Below, one piece after another: positions 17,085 to 24,325 of a stretch of 64,000 nucleotides of DNA (positions are counted from its first letter, which is position 1; each line of letters opens with the position of its first letter). Made by a program: the position numbers and the translations under genes. The notes under the pieces were generated by a model, which saw only the letters and a program-made list of their open reading frames with translations, searched no databases and had not been told where the DNA came from. Source of the DNA: Pseudovibrio japonicus (GTDB lineage: Bacteria; Pseudomonadota; Alphaproteobacteria; Rhizobiales; Stappiaceae); contig NZ_BMXE01000008.1 in the NCBI RefSeq assembly GCF_014651595.1, positions 186,001-250,000 on the forward strand, given 5' to 3'.

Positions 17085-17161
17085 GCACCGGTAGCTCAGC
17101 TGGATAGAGCACCAGACTACGAATCTGGGGGTCGGGGGTTCGAATCCTCCCCGGTGCGCCA
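17085..17161 (+). tRNA. tRNA-Arg (anticodon ACG), copy 1
   Basis: A 77-nt cloverleaf: acceptor GCACCGG/CCGGTGC, D arm GTAGCTCAGCTGGATAGAGC, anticodon stem CCAGA/TCTGG with loop CTACGAA (anticodon ACG, read as ICG after deamination), T arm GGGGGTTCGAATCCTCC, discriminator G and an encoded CCA. It is identical to the copy 74 bp downstream. Confidence 0.97.
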
Positions 17162-17235
17162 TTTCCTCTCTTAAAGGAGGTCATGGCAAAAAATAGCACT
17201 AGGCCAACATATAATTCTTGTTCGCAAGAAACTGC

Positions 17236-17312
17236 GCACCGGTAGCTCAGCTGGATAGAGCACCAGACTACGAATCTGGGGGTCGGGGGTTCGAATCCTC
17301 CCCGGTGCGCCA
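17236..17312 (+). tRNA. tRNA-Arg (anticodon ACG), copy 2
   Basis: The second 77-nt copy, identical to the first over its full length, with the same ACG anticodon and encoded CCA. The 74-bp spacer between the copies is unrelated to the sequence flanking them, so the duplication is confined to the gene itself or is old. Confidence 0.97.
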
Positions 17313-20395: not shown

Positions 20396-22012
20396 ATGCG
20401 TAAGGCGCAAGTTGCTGCACTCGATGAACTTGAAGATCGTAAGCCTGCTTATGCACTTGTTGGTGAGGTCGACCTTGTCATTGTCAGGTATGATGATGAG
20501 ATCTCCGTGCTGTACGGACGGTGTCTCCATCGCGGAGCGCTCTTATCTGATGGGTTCGTCAGAGGTCGCAATCTGATTTGTGGGTTACACCAATGGGATT
20601 ATCGGCTGAGTTCGGGTGTCAGTGCTTACGACAACAAAGAATGCCTGCAAAAATTTACCCACTTCGTCGAGGATGGCAACGTTTATGTCGATGAAGATGA
20701 AGTGACCGCCTGGGCCAAAGACAACCCGCAACCTTACTTCCGCAAAGCTTATCTGGGCCAATACGCAGATTTTCACGGCACTGAAGAAGAACCACATAAC
20801 AAACTGATACAGACATATGCGCGCTCGGGCTTGAAGGGCACTGGTCATCACGGCGCAATTGAAGCCATGGGGGTACCCACGACAGAGCTACCCCAGTGGC
20901 AAGACATTCAGATCCTGACAGCACAACTGCATAATCCGCCGCGTCTGGATGAAGAACCTGTTGGAACCGATGTGGTCATCGGCCCCAAAGCGCAAAAGCC
21001 TCTCCATCTGAAAATCCCGCTCTTAGTCTCGGACATGAGCTTTGGTGCGCTCTCAGAGCCAGCCAAAATCGCTCTCGCCCGCGGAGCAGAAAGTGTAGGG
21101 ACCGGAATTTGCTCCGGTGAAGGGGGCATGCTGCCTGAGGAGCAGGCTGAGAACACGCGGTACTTTTATGAGTTAGCTTCCGCCCGGTTTGGTTTTTCAT
21201 GGGATCAGCTGGAAAGAGTTCAGGCCTTCCATTTCAAAGGCGGACAAGCAGCAAAAACCGGAACTGGCGGGCATCTTCCGGCCGCAAAAGTAACCGAAAA
21301 AATTGCAAAGGTGAGGGGCCTCAAAGCAGGCGAGGGGGCAATCTCTCCGGCAAGGTTCCCCGAATGGATGAAAACAGCAGATTTTCGCGAGTTTGCCGAC
21401 AAAGTACGTGACAAGACCGGGGGAATCCCGATTGGCTTCAAACTGTCAGCACAGCATATCGAAAAGGATATAGATGCCGCGCTGGAAGTTGGAGTGGACT
21501 ACATCATTCTCGACGGACGAGGTGGCGGAACTGGTGCATCCCCGTTGGTGTTTAGAGATAACATCTCGGTTCCAACCATACCGGCGCTGGCACGCGCGCG
21601 ACGCCATCTGGACCGCAGTGGTCGGCGGGATGTTACGCTTGTTATCACGGGGGGGCTACGCAAACCCGAAGACTTCGTCAAAGCAATAGCTTTGGGTGCA
21701 GATGCAATCGCATTGGCAAACGCGCCTATGCAAGCCATCGGCTGTATTGCCATGCGCGCATGCCACACGAACAACTGTCCCGTCGGCATAGCAACGCAGA
21801 AAGACCACCTTGTTGCGCGTCTGGAGGTTGAGAAATCAGCAAAGCGTCTGGAGAAGTTCTTCACGGCGTCTGTAGAGCTGATGAAGGTGATGGCCCGGGC
21901 ATGTGGGCATGCGCATATCTCGGATTTCTCAATCAATGACATCACCAGTTGGAAGAAGGAAATGTCGGAGCTCGCCGGTATCAGCTGGGCTGGGCACGAC
22001 CCTAATGAGTAA
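20396..22012 (+). CDS. Rieske domain plus FMN-binding glutamate-synthase-like protein
   Basis: A 538-residue fusion. Residues ~5-95 form a Rieske [2Fe-2S] domain with C43-x-H45 and C62-x2-H65. Residues ~150-530 match the FMN/3Fe-4S domain of glutamate synthase: LVSDMSFGALSE, ICSGEGGMLPEE, KGGQAAKTGTGGHLP, PIGFKLSAQHIEKDI, DGRGGGTGASP and the cysteine cluster C450-x5-C456-x4-C461 ending in CPVGIATQ. The glutaminase and FAD subunits of true glutamate synthase are absent, so this is an FMN enzyme of the archaeal-type GltB-like family with its own Rieske centre. AAGGAAG lies seven bases before the ATG. It heads a five-gene redox operon; the reaction is unknown. Confidence 0.9.
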   Translation: MRKAQVAALDELEDRKPAYALVGEVDLVIVRYDDEISVLYGRCLHRGALLSDGFVRGRNLICGLHQWDYRLSSGVSAYDNKECLQKFTHFVEDGNVYVDEDEVTAWAKDNPQPYFRKAYLGQYADFHGTEEEPHNKLIQTYARSGLKGTGHHGAIEAMGVPTTELPQWQDIQILTAQLHNPPRLDEEPVGTDVVIGPKAQKPLHLKIPLLVSDMSFGALSEPAKIALARGAESVGTGICSGEGGMLPEEQAENTRYFYELASARFGFSWDQLERVQAFHFKGGQAAKTGTGGHLPAAKVTEKIAKVRGLKAGEGAISPARFPEWMKTADFREFADKVRDKTGGIPIGFKLSAQHIEKDIDAALEVGVDYIILDGRGGGTGASPLVFRDNISVPTIPALARARRHLDRSGRRDVTLVITGGLRKPEDFVKAIALGADAIALANAPMQAIGCIAMRACHTNNCPVGIATQKDHLVARLEVEKSAKRLEKFFTASVELMKVMARACGHAHISDFSINDITSWKKEMSELAGISWAGHDPNE

Positions 22013-22054
22013 ATCTGGCTGCTTTGAACAGCAGAAAATCAGTAGGTCGTATAA

Positions 22055-22324
22055 ATGGTTGTTGCTGAAATTATTATTCTGATCGCACAAATTTACTGCG
22101 TGATTGGTTTTATCGTTGCCATTGTGTTTATCACCATCGGGCTGAGCCGCGTGGAACTTGCTGCCCGCAAGGCCTATCTTTTCCGTCTGCAAATCCTTCC
22201 AGGGCTCATCCTGCTCTGGCCAATTGTGATTGTTCGCTGGGTTGCGTTGGAGCGCTCAGGTGAAAAAGCTTTGCTTGATGAAGAAGAAAAACAGTTAGAC
22301 GAAGAGCAAGAGGGCAAAAAATAA
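22055..22324 (+). CDS. small membrane protein of the redox operon
   Basis: An 89-residue protein with two predicted helices (residues ~4-27 and ~46-62) around a short cytoplasmic-looking loop (SRVELAARKAYLFR) and a very acidic, Lys-tipped tail (LLDEEEKQLDEEQ). The family is not recognised. It begins 42 bp after the Rieske/FMN gene and its TAA shares one base with the ATG of the next gene, so translation is coupled. It is probably a small subunit of the membrane part of the complex. Confidence 0.7.
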   Translation: MVVAEIIILIAQIYCVIGFIVAIVFITIGLSRVELAARKAYLFRLQILPGLILLWPIVIVRWVALERSGEKALLDEEEKQLDEEQEGKK

Positions 22325-22491
22325 TGCAGCGCGCCTTCCGAAGAGCCCATCGTTCCCTTTGGCTTGTTCTGGCTTTTCTCATTCCAATTGTCCTGGGCTT
22401 GGCGCTCATGATGCGACCCACGGGAACGCACGAGCAGCCGCCCGTTCCCCTTGATGACGCGGCAAAGTCGGCTCTGGAGGCAAACCAGTGA
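22324..22491 (+). CDS. 55-residue single-pass membrane protein
   Basis: This short ORF runs from the ATG in TAATG (one-base overlap with the upstream stop) to a TGA that overlaps the next gene's GTG in GTGA. It encodes MQRAFRRAHRSLWLV..., a basic N-terminus, one hydrophobic helix (residues ~12-30), then a Pro-rich periplasmic-type tail (EQPPVPLDD) ending in LEANQ. Overlap at both ends is strong evidence that it is a real gene. It is not recognised; a subunit or assembly factor of the adjacent membrane redox protein is likely. Confidence 0.75.
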   Translation: MQRAFRRAHRSLWLVLAFLIPIVLGLALMMRPTGTHEQPPVPLDDAAKSALEANQ

Positions 22492-23555
22492 GTGTTAAAT
22501 ATGTGCCGGTAATCTGGAACCGCACCAAACTTGCCTACGATGCTGTCGTGCTGGCAACCGTTGGCGCATATCTTGGCATCTATCTCTACGTGGCACCGCA
22601 GTTCCAAACAGTCACAATGCCGATTGACTGGGATATCTACAAAGCGCAGGCATTTGGTACCTGCGTCTTCTTTTTACTGACCTTCATATTATGCATCGGA
22701 CCCATGGCACGGCTGGACAAGCGCTTCTTGCCACTGCTCTATAACCGCCGCCACCTTGGCGTAATCACCTGCGTGCTCGCCTACTTCCACGTTGACAACA
22801 TCCTTGGCTGGTACAACGCGTTCTCACCAATCAATCGCTATGTCTCGGTCTTCATTGTCAACACGAGTTTTGACCGCTTCCTGGGTTTCCCCTTTGAGAT
22901 CCTTGGGGTCCTGGCGCTTCTGATCCTGACGATCCTTGCGGTTACCAGTCATGACTTCTGGCTCCATTTCCTGAAGCCAACCCTCTGGAAATTCCTCCAT
23001 ATGGGGATCTATCTGGCCTACGCTTTGATCGTCGCCCATGTGGCTCTCGGCGCTCTGCAAAGCGCTGCAGGTCCCTTTATGACCACTGCTGTTGGCGCCT
23101 CCGTCGCCCTCGTGGCCGCATTGCATCTACTGGTTGCAAGAAAAGAGCACCTGTTTGACACGCAAGAAAGTCCAATGGATGACAGCGGCACTTGGATGGA
23201 TGCAGGTGATCCAACGGAGGTCCCTGACAAACGCGCGCGGATTATCTCCATCACGGACGATGAACGCGTTGCAATCTTCAGAAACGGCAAAAAGCTCTCT
23301 GCCATCTCCAATGTTTGTGCCCATCAGAACGGACCTTTGGGAGAAGGGAAGATCGTATATGGCTGTGTAACCTGTCCATGGCACGGTTACCAATATCGGG
23401 TGGAAGACGGGAGATCTCCGCCGCCATTCACGGAGAAGATTTCCACCTACCGGCTCAAACTGGAAGATGGTCGCCTGTGGCTGAATATAGAAGCGCTGCC
23501 TCCTGGCACTTATGTTGAGCCCGTCGTTGCTCCCATACTGGCAGAGGGAAGCTAA
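22488..23555 (+). CDS. ferric-reductase-like b-type membrane protein with C-terminal Rieske domain
   Basis: A 355-residue protein. Residues ~18-215 contain about six membrane helices of the ferric-reductase-like type. Histidines H89 and H101 in one helix region and H171 and H184 in another are spaced as in bis-heme b proteins of this fold, giving a path for electrons across the membrane. Residues ~240-345 form a Rieske domain with C277-x-H279 and C296-x2-H299 (CPWH). The GTG start overlaps the upstream stop in GTGA, and the stop overlaps the next ATG, so all genes of the operon are translationally coupled. There is no NAD- or FAD-binding domain; the FMN protein encoded first is a plausible partner. 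Confidence 0.85.
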   Translation: MSVKYVPVIWNRTKLAYDAVVLATVGAYLGIYLYVAPQFQTVTMPIDWDIYKAQAFGTCVFFLLTFILCIGPMARLDKRFLPLLYNRRHLGVITCVLAYFHVDNILGWYNAFSPINRYVSVFIVNTSFDRFLGFPFEILGVLALLILTILAVTSHDFWLHFLKPTLWKFLHMGIYLAYALIVAHVALGALQSAAGPFMTTAVGASVALVAALHLLVARKEHLFDTQESPMDDSGTWMDAGDPTEVPDKRARIISITDDERVAIFRNGKKLSAISNVCAHQNGPLGEGKIVYGCVTCPWHGYQYRVEDGRSPPPFTEKISTYRLKLEDGRLWLNIEALPPGTYVEPVVAPILAEGS

Positions 23556-24325
23556 TGGCGAAAAAGAAACCTGATCCCTTCTTCATCGGTTGGGCGAAAA
23601 AGCCGCCGAAGGTCCTTCAAGGGTTCCTTTTCTTGATCTCGGCCGTGCTGGTTGGGGCTGCGGTCGGTGTCGCATTGGGCATAGGCGCATCTGTTCCGGA
23701 TCCCGGCGATGCGCGCTTTGAGTGGGGAGCCGGATACCAGACGTTCACCGGCTACGTTGATGCCAAACCTTACCCGCTCCTGAGGCTCCCTGCGGGCGAA
23801 GATGGTCGGGACCAGCCGCATGCGATGCTGATCTCAGGCATTGGCAAACGCGGCATGCAACAGCTTGCAGGTCCGCTAGATGGTCAAGCCGTTGATGCAG
23901 GCGGTATCCTGCTCAAACGCGGCGATCTGGACATGCTGCAAGTGGGTGGAGATGTGTCACTTCGCGCGGCTGAAAACCCAATACCCAACTTCACGCCAGC
24001 TCCTGCAGAGCATCTGGGCAAGTGGCGCTTATCCGGCGAGATCTGCGACGGCAAGTGCTACACTGGAGCAATGCGACCCGGTGTCGGATTGGCACATAAG
24101 GCCTGCGCGAACCTCTGCATCATCGGTGGAATCCCACCGGTTTTTGTTACCACCACACCCTTGATGGGCAGCCAGTTCTTTCTCTTAGCCGACGAGAATG
24201 GTGAGCCCTTATCATCTGAAGTGCAGGATTGGGTCGCCCTGTTGATTTCACTGGAAGGTGAGGTTGAGCGCCGTGATGACCTGATGATCTTCAAGGTGAA
24301 CCTGGATAGCGCAAAACAGCTCTAA
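23555..24325 (+). CDS. membrane-anchored protein with Cys/His motif
   Basis: A 256-residue protein with one N-terminal membrane helix (residues ~21-46, LQGFLFLISAVLVGAAVGVAL) and the remainder predicted outside the cytoplasm. Residues 164-188 hold the striking pattern C164-x3-C168-x12-H181-x2-C184-x3-C188, followed by IIGGIPPVFV, which suggests a bound metal, FeS cluster or covalent cofactor. I do not recognise the family by name. Its ATG overlaps the stop of the ferric-reductase-like gene, so it is the last gene of the redox operon and probably the periplasmic partner. Confidence 0.75.
   Translation: MAKKKPDPFFIGWAKKPPKVLQGFLFLISAVLVGAAVGVALGIGASVPDPGDARFEWGAGYQTFTGYVDAKPYPLLRLPAGEDGRDQPHAMLISGIGKRGMQQLAGPLDGQAVDAGGILLKRGDLDMLQVGGDVSLRAAENPIPNFTPAPAEHLGKWRLSGEICDGKCYTGAMRPGVGLAHKACANLCIIGGIPPVFVTTTPLMGSQFFLLADENGEPLSSEVQDWVALLISLEGEVERRDDLMIFKVNLDSAKQL

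Follow-up and report, generated by a model that had tools for sequence, protein, structure and literature searches.

A conserved four-gene membrane core built around a Rieske-tailed ferric reductase domain protein, and its partner enzymes, in Pseudovibrio japonicus and related bacteria

Genes and domains of the locus

We analysed a 64,000-nucleotide stretch of contig C8 of the Pseudovibrio japonicus genome (the window), in which positions 20396–24325 carry five head-to-tail genes, g1 to g5. A 42-bp gap separates g1 from g2, and the later junctions overlap by 1, 4 and 1 bases (Table 1). An original prediction, made from the sequence, had read them as a redox operon joining a Rieske/flavin mononucleotide (FMN)/[3Fe-4S] enzyme to a bis-heme Rieske membrane protein, and the open reading frame (ORF) junctions bear out the layout that it gave. 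The same arrangement was found again in other genomes and is therefore not due to chance. Here we describe the genes, their distribution and a proposed role in transmembrane electron transfer.

Table 1 Features of the g1–g5 locus in window coordinates
Feature	Position	Strand	Basis
g1: Rieske [2Fe-2S] and FMN/[3Fe-4S] glutamate synthase domain fusion, 538 aa	20396..22012	+	ORF, Pfam, alignment
g1 Rieske domain, residues 5–85; C43, H45, C62, H65	20408..20650	+	Pfam, alignment
g1 Glu_synthase (FMN, 3Fe-4S) domain, residues 196–504; C450, C456, C461	20981..21907	+	Pfam, alignment
g2: small membrane protein, 89 aa, without Pfam family	22055..22324	+	ORF, Pfam
g3: small membrane protein, 55 aa, without Pfam family	22324..22491	+	ORF, Pfam
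g4: membrane protein of 355 aa with a ferric reductase domain and a C-terminal Rieske domain, GTG start, two b hemes predicted	22488..23555	+	
g4 ferric reductase domain match, residues 57–182; invariant His 89, 101, 171, and 184 just past the match	22656..23033	+	
g4 Rieske domain, residues 236–309; C277, H279, C296, H299	23193..23414	+	Pfam, alignment
g5: Cys/His protein of 256 aa, predicted to be periplasmic, with an N-terminal membrane anchor and then two small beta domains, without Pfam family	23555..24325	+	
g5 conserved Cys/His motif region, residues 161–198; C164, C168, H181, C184, C188	24035..24148	+	alignment

The g1 protein matched the Pfam families Rieske (2.3e-12; 47.1 bits, cut-off 20.3) and Glu_synthase (3.8e-90), which together with the overlapping FMN_dh were the families over cut-off. 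Its Rieske and [3Fe-4S] ligands (Table 1) are invariant in 42/42 aligned homologues. None of its eight Pfam matches at E ≤ 0.1 belonged to the glutaminase or GXGXG families, and no Pfam match to the CDGSH family was obtained. With the full-length model of the glutamate synthase (GltS) large subunit, GltB, it scored 138.6 bits, below the cut-off of 1047. Like GltB, g1 has an FMN-binding domain and three [3Fe-4S] cysteines; unlike it, g1 has no detected GXGXG domain and, as originally predicted, no detected glutaminase domain and no FAD subunit in its operon. Alignment revealed a segment common to g1 and GltS in which an Arg comes after a Lys and a Gly-rich turn, residues that we take to line the substrate site. 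Judged by its family, g1 likely acts on an amino or imino acid. In genome G134 (L190 1468-4280), a Rieske-FMN gene directly overlaps a class I/II aminotransferase gene identified by Pfam, a hint that the enzyme may perform amino acid chemistry.

The same genome encodes a paralogue of g1 on contig C3 (G000:C3:576223-577446; L048 8906-10468), in which two CDGSH [2Fe-2S] motifs replace the Rieske domain and the FMN/[3Fe-4S] core is 66% identical to g1 over residues 129–536. Tandem CDGSH motifs with a glutamate synthase FMN domain characterise the type 5 CDGSH iron-sulfur proteins (CISD), according to the section of PMC3174974 cited here. g1 resembles type 5 CISD in this core and in its N-terminal His-ligated [2Fe-2S] carrier; it differs in having a single Rieske domain rather than two CDGSH motifs and in an occurrence that tracks the membrane core. 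The type 5 paralogue adjoins a gene for a metallo-beta-lactamase-fold protein.

The g4 protein matched Ferric_reduct (PF01794; 2.4e-10, 41.0 bits, curated cut-off 28) and Rieske (5.7e-13, 49 bits, cut-off 20.3), in agreement with the predicted ferric-reductase-like protein having two spaced His pairs and a second Rieske centre. The four histidines and four Rieske ligands are invariant in 78/78 aligned homologues. In the ferric reductase domain (FRD) superfamily (STEAP, NOX and MsrQ/YedZ), two-heme proteins have four canonical heme histidines in transmembrane helices 3 and 5, and MsrQ/YedZ has Arg for the first heme His, as given in the cited part of PMC3591440. All four canonical histidines are present in g4, inside helices 87–109 and 164–191 of the predicted model, whose six-helix fold is that of STEAP/NOX; g4 is thus predicted, from sequence and model, to bind two b hemes. 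The MsrQ/YedZ substitution was absent, H89 being invariant in 78/78, and the NCBIfam MsrQ model gave 28.1 bits against a cut-off of 130. Although it shares the FRD core, the canonical histidines and the STEAP/NOX fold with the superfamily, g4 lacks the C-terminal FAD and NAD(P)H domains of NOX and long-form ferric reductases, and a Rieske domain, predicted to be cytosolic, takes their place.

No Pfam family matched g2, g3 or g5. In g5, C168, H181, C184 and C188, together with C164, probably hold a metal or redox thiol centre. Small exported relatives of the g5 domain occur in a three-gene cluster (L062-L067, L079-L083, L177-L184), accompanied in 13/13 distinct loci by another exported Cys protein, which belongs to no known family, and in 12/13 by a SCO1/SenC protein, the thirteenth (L065) having been read with short flanks only. 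The SCO1/SenC neighbours are a hint that copper or thiols are involved at the g5 centre.

Selection was estimated for g1, g3, g4 and g5 and was strongly purifying in the measurable cases. Against the congener G002, the ratio of nonsynonymous to synonymous substitution rates (dN/dS) was 0.026 for g1, 0.087 for g3 and 0.026 for g4, and g5 was saturated at synonymous sites (pN 0.04, pS 0.78). In the comparison with another congener, G005, all four genes were saturated at synonymous sites (pN 0.07–0.13, pS 0.76–0.85).

The conserved four-gene core and its partners

The conserved unit is the four-gene core g2–g5, with the FMN gene as one partner among several. A scan of named genomes (GTDB species genomes) for g5 yielded 511 stretches, 498 of them coding for a relative, and the best 80 were examined. 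The nearest matches were from Pseudovibrio, and the titles of the 80 loci indicated Alphaproteobacteria wherever a group was given. Full-family g4 was found in 78/80 loci; it was cut by the contig end in L129 and out of frame in L157. Members of the g2 family were present in 75/80 loci, and g3 homologues in 38/80 (clustering) to 40/80 (blastp), their short length limiting detection. A small membrane gene (~80–90 aa, three sequence groups) often follows g5, for example in L102, L114 and L117, and was not seen in the window.

Within ~9 kb of the core, some contigs ending earlier, 42 of the 80 loci had an FMN-Rieske gene and 38 a gene for a thiamine pyrophosphate (TPP) enzyme: 22 had both, 20 only FMN, 16 only TPP and 22 neither. 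A Rieske domain was recognised by motif in 42/42 FMN proteins and 29/38 TPP proteins. In most Roseibium/Labrenzia loci the order was antiporter, FMN, TPP-Rieske, g2, g3, g4, g5 and lastly such a small membrane gene. A common partner in the 22 loci with neither enzyme was sought by Pfam on nine neighbour proteins from eight such loci (L093, L106, L107, L112, L144, L151, L156 and L158) and on one more from L215. These were amidohydrolase, TetR, RecQ helicase, TctA, DAO/GCV_T, S49 peptidase and acyl-CoA-synthetase-type AMP-binding enzymes; beyond the AMP-binding enzymes (L156, L158), no shared partner was found among them.

We surveyed 240 genomes of the class, with g4 counted at E ≤ 1e-30 and Rieske-FMN at E ≤ 1e-120 with the Rieske part covered. 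g4 occurred in 13 genomes and g5 in 17 (E ≤ 0.001); the 12 full-length g5 all fell within the 13 g4 genomes. Rieske-FMN occurred in seven genomes from five families, four of these families with g4. Six of the seven also had g4, compared with 13/240 overall (Fisher 4.7e-8, relatedness ignored), and the remaining carrier was an incomplete genome (67%). g1 stood apart from the core in four of the six, ~18 kb away in G069 and G203 and on another contig in G183 and G287; the link nevertheless holds, because six of the seven carriers have the core somewhere. CDGSH-fused copies were found in 4/240 genomes, of which one had g4, namely the genome of the window, which holds both forms. Among 11 class-wide loci (own genome excluded), g2, g4 and g5 occurred together in 11/11, and an FMN gene within the fetched 14–18 kb in 1/11. 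A long g4 match was present in 4/45 relatives searched outside the genus. In a phylum sample of 398 genomes, the g5 profile matched ten, seven at full length, all in the window's own class.

Within the genus (16 genomes, including that of the window), g4 was found in 12 and intact g1 in ten, all with g4; g1 was not found at E ≤ 1e-60 in the four genus genomes without g4. Co-occurrence in the genus and the class suggests, therefore, that g1 needs the core; the core does not need g1. In Pseudovibrio exalbescens (L046 5703-6272 / L090), g1 consists of remnants of three segments, with g2–g5 still in place. The predicted five-gene operon is thus real and recurrent without being fixed: the co-occurrence of g1 with the core was confirmed, but the constant set is g2–g5, and separation of the membrane genes from the FMN gene, named beforehand as evidence against the prediction, was seen in part (no FMN gene near the core in 38/80 loci and in 10/11 class-wide loci, no intact copy in two Pseudovibrio species, and a non-adjacent one in four other genomes).

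The commonest alternative partner is the Rieske-TPP enzyme, found in 11/240 class genomes, five of them with g4. At E ≤ 1e-120, the genome of the window yielded none. The TPP partner in G032 was closest to pyruvate oxidase (PoxB/SpxB; 4.7e-115), from which it differs in its N-terminal Rieske fusion and in a score (385 bits) below the family cut-off of 742. On Rhizobium plasmids, the core occurs with an SDR gene near a CoA transferase and an unfused TPP enzyme, the latter closer to acetolactate synthase. In G276, a Rieske-FMN_red fusion directly follows g4, at the usual place of g5.

An antiporter gene (Na_H_Exchanger by Pfam in three examples) adjoined the FMN gene in 14/42 FMN loci and was present in 0/38 others (p 3.5e-5, relatedness ignored and Roseibium heavily represented). 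It was also next to g1 in G069 and G183, where g1 stands away from the core. Haloarchaeal plasmids, the haloarchaeal replicons that were covered, encode Rieske-FMN (58–60% identity, three records) and Rieske-TPP proteins (58–60%, four records); the g4 matches listed for them were Rieske-sized only, and in one record an annotated sodium:proton antiporter adjoins the TPP gene. On haloarchaeal plasmid stretches (within L164-L168), these enzymes are accompanied by genes for sulfur transfer, mercury reductase and thiol redox functions. On a Mycobacteroides plasmid, a cation:proton antiporter without similarity to the other antiporters lies near a Rieske-TPP gene.

In the window, the nearest flanks of g1–g5 are a molybdopterin adenylyltransferase gene on the opposite strand and a glutathione-transferase-like gene. 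No promoter or terminator at the operon exceeded those in shuffled sequences. Two tandem tRNA-Arg (acg) genes lie at 17085–17312, overlapping several short ORFs.

A proposed electron conduit and its alternatives

From the domains, ligands, predicted folds and co-occurrence described above, we propose that the core g2–g5 is a transmembrane electron conduit from cytosol to periplasm. In g4, a STEAP/NOX-type bis-heme protein, the cytosolic Rieske centre would replace the usual FAD/NAD(P)H module and take electrons from soluble oxidoreductases bearing a Rieske domain of their own. The donor in this genome would be the GltS-type enzyme g1; elsewhere its place would be taken by the TPP enzyme resembling pyruvate oxidase or, in a single case, by the FMN-reductase-type protein. 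Electrons would then pass from the g4 Rieske centre to the inner heme (H89/H171), the outer heme (H101/H184), the anchored periplasmic protein g5 and finally an outer acceptor. As model-based predictions, the structural steps have good support, and the originally suggested wire from cytoplasm to outside is plausible; the role of g1 as donor is suggested by co-occurrence. We infer the bound cofactors, heme pairing, topology, direction, direct Rieske-to-Rieske transfer, g1 substrate and outer acceptor. For the whole reading, in which the core exports electrons from Rieske-tagged cytosolic oxidases through the g4 hemes to g5, we estimate a probability of roughly 0.5.

Several observations weigh against this proposal. 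Neither an FMN nor a TPP gene was in reach in 22/80 core loci, some on short contigs, and 9/38 partner TPP enzymes were not Rieske-fused by motif. Two Pseudovibrio genomes kept the core with only g1 remnants beside it (G008) or with no g1 (G011), and g5 was not found in G276 although g4 was present. TPP-Rieske occurred without g4 in 6/11 genomes, and these, like the haloarchaeal plasmids, indicate that Rieske enzymes may work without the wire. The co-occurrence statistics ignore shared ancestry, and the cofactors and electron transfer of the conduit are predictions from sequence and models. We know of no established pattern of Rieske-to-Rieske transfer.

It is possible, though we doubt it, that g1 and the membrane core have separate functions and are joined in the Pseudovibrio operon by coincidence; the core would then be a reductase of the FRD type that is fed by another donor and acts on metals or in repair in the periplasm. 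The 38/80 loci and 10/11 class-wide loci with no FMN gene near the core, the core without intact g1 in G008 and G011, and the haloarchaeal plasmids that have g1-like genes but no full g4 match all fit such a separation. It accords poorly with g4 in six of seven Rieske-FMN carriers against 13/240 overall, non-adjacent cases included, and with CDGSH-fused copies, which do not track g4 (1/4). Flow could also run inward, g5 and g4 taking electrons from a periplasmic donor and supplying them to g1 for the reduction of an imino or oxo acid, in the manner of glutamate synthase. The GltS FMN domain normally works reductively, and the Lys/Gly-rich turn/Arg segment common to g1 and GltS would suit this direction. 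We nonetheless judge inward flow improbable: the loci show no obvious periplasmic donor, the alternative partner tested is closest to pyruvate oxidase, an oxidative enzyme, and those FRD enzymes whose function is known pass electrons outwards from NADPH in the cytosol, as described in the cited part of PMC3591440.

Two elaborations of the conduit reading are more tentative than the reading itself. In a compatible variant that we hold with little confidence, g5 would handle or deliver a metal such as copper, and the wire would reduce that metal for uptake or delivery in the manner of STEAP. Speculatively, unrelated oxidases (GltS-type FMN, TPP pyruvate-oxidase-type and FMN-reductase-type), each with a gained N-terminal Rieske domain, could discharge by way of that domain into a common Rieske/bis-heme exporter, which would reduce a novel family of Cys3His proteins in the periplasm. 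In NOX2, a proton channel balances the protons left inside; by analogy, the sodium/proton-exchanger-type antiporter next to the FMN gene might do so here.

Relation to known systems and significance

FRD plus Rieske proteins and CDGSH–GltS fusions are already known as architectures in the cited parts of PMC3591440 and PMC3174974; in the former, a figure legend assigns Rieske and FMN domains to the bacterial FRD model M4. The fixed partners g2, g3 and g5 distinguish g4, since that part of PMC3591440 makes no mention of them. It also describes YedYZ, in which a partner in the periplasm receives electrons that an FRD protein has carried through the membrane. The conduit would resemble the periplasmic methionine sulfoxide reductase system MsrPQ in this respect, whereas g4 scores below the MsrQ cut-off and keeps the first heme His, and g1–g5 have no match to a molybdoenzyme family. 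The original prediction knew of no described system with this set. In the open-licence literature, subscription papers being mostly outside the scope, we likewise found no description of the five-gene set, the Rieske-FMN/Rieske-TPP pair or the g5 family; the novelty does not extend to the two architectures.

The finding concerns proposed transmembrane electron transfer by an FRD protein, in a new form. It defines an uncharacterised, predicted periplasmic Cys/His domain encoded in 498 stretches of GTDB species genomes (best 80 examined). The electron-conduit idea is directly testable because the partner enzymes swap between loci. If true, it would give Rieske- and CDGSH-tagged GltS-like enzymes a concrete role, and would add a transmembrane route in which a NOX/STEAP-type heme pair receives its electrons from a Rieske centre rather than from NAD(P)H/FAD or quinol.

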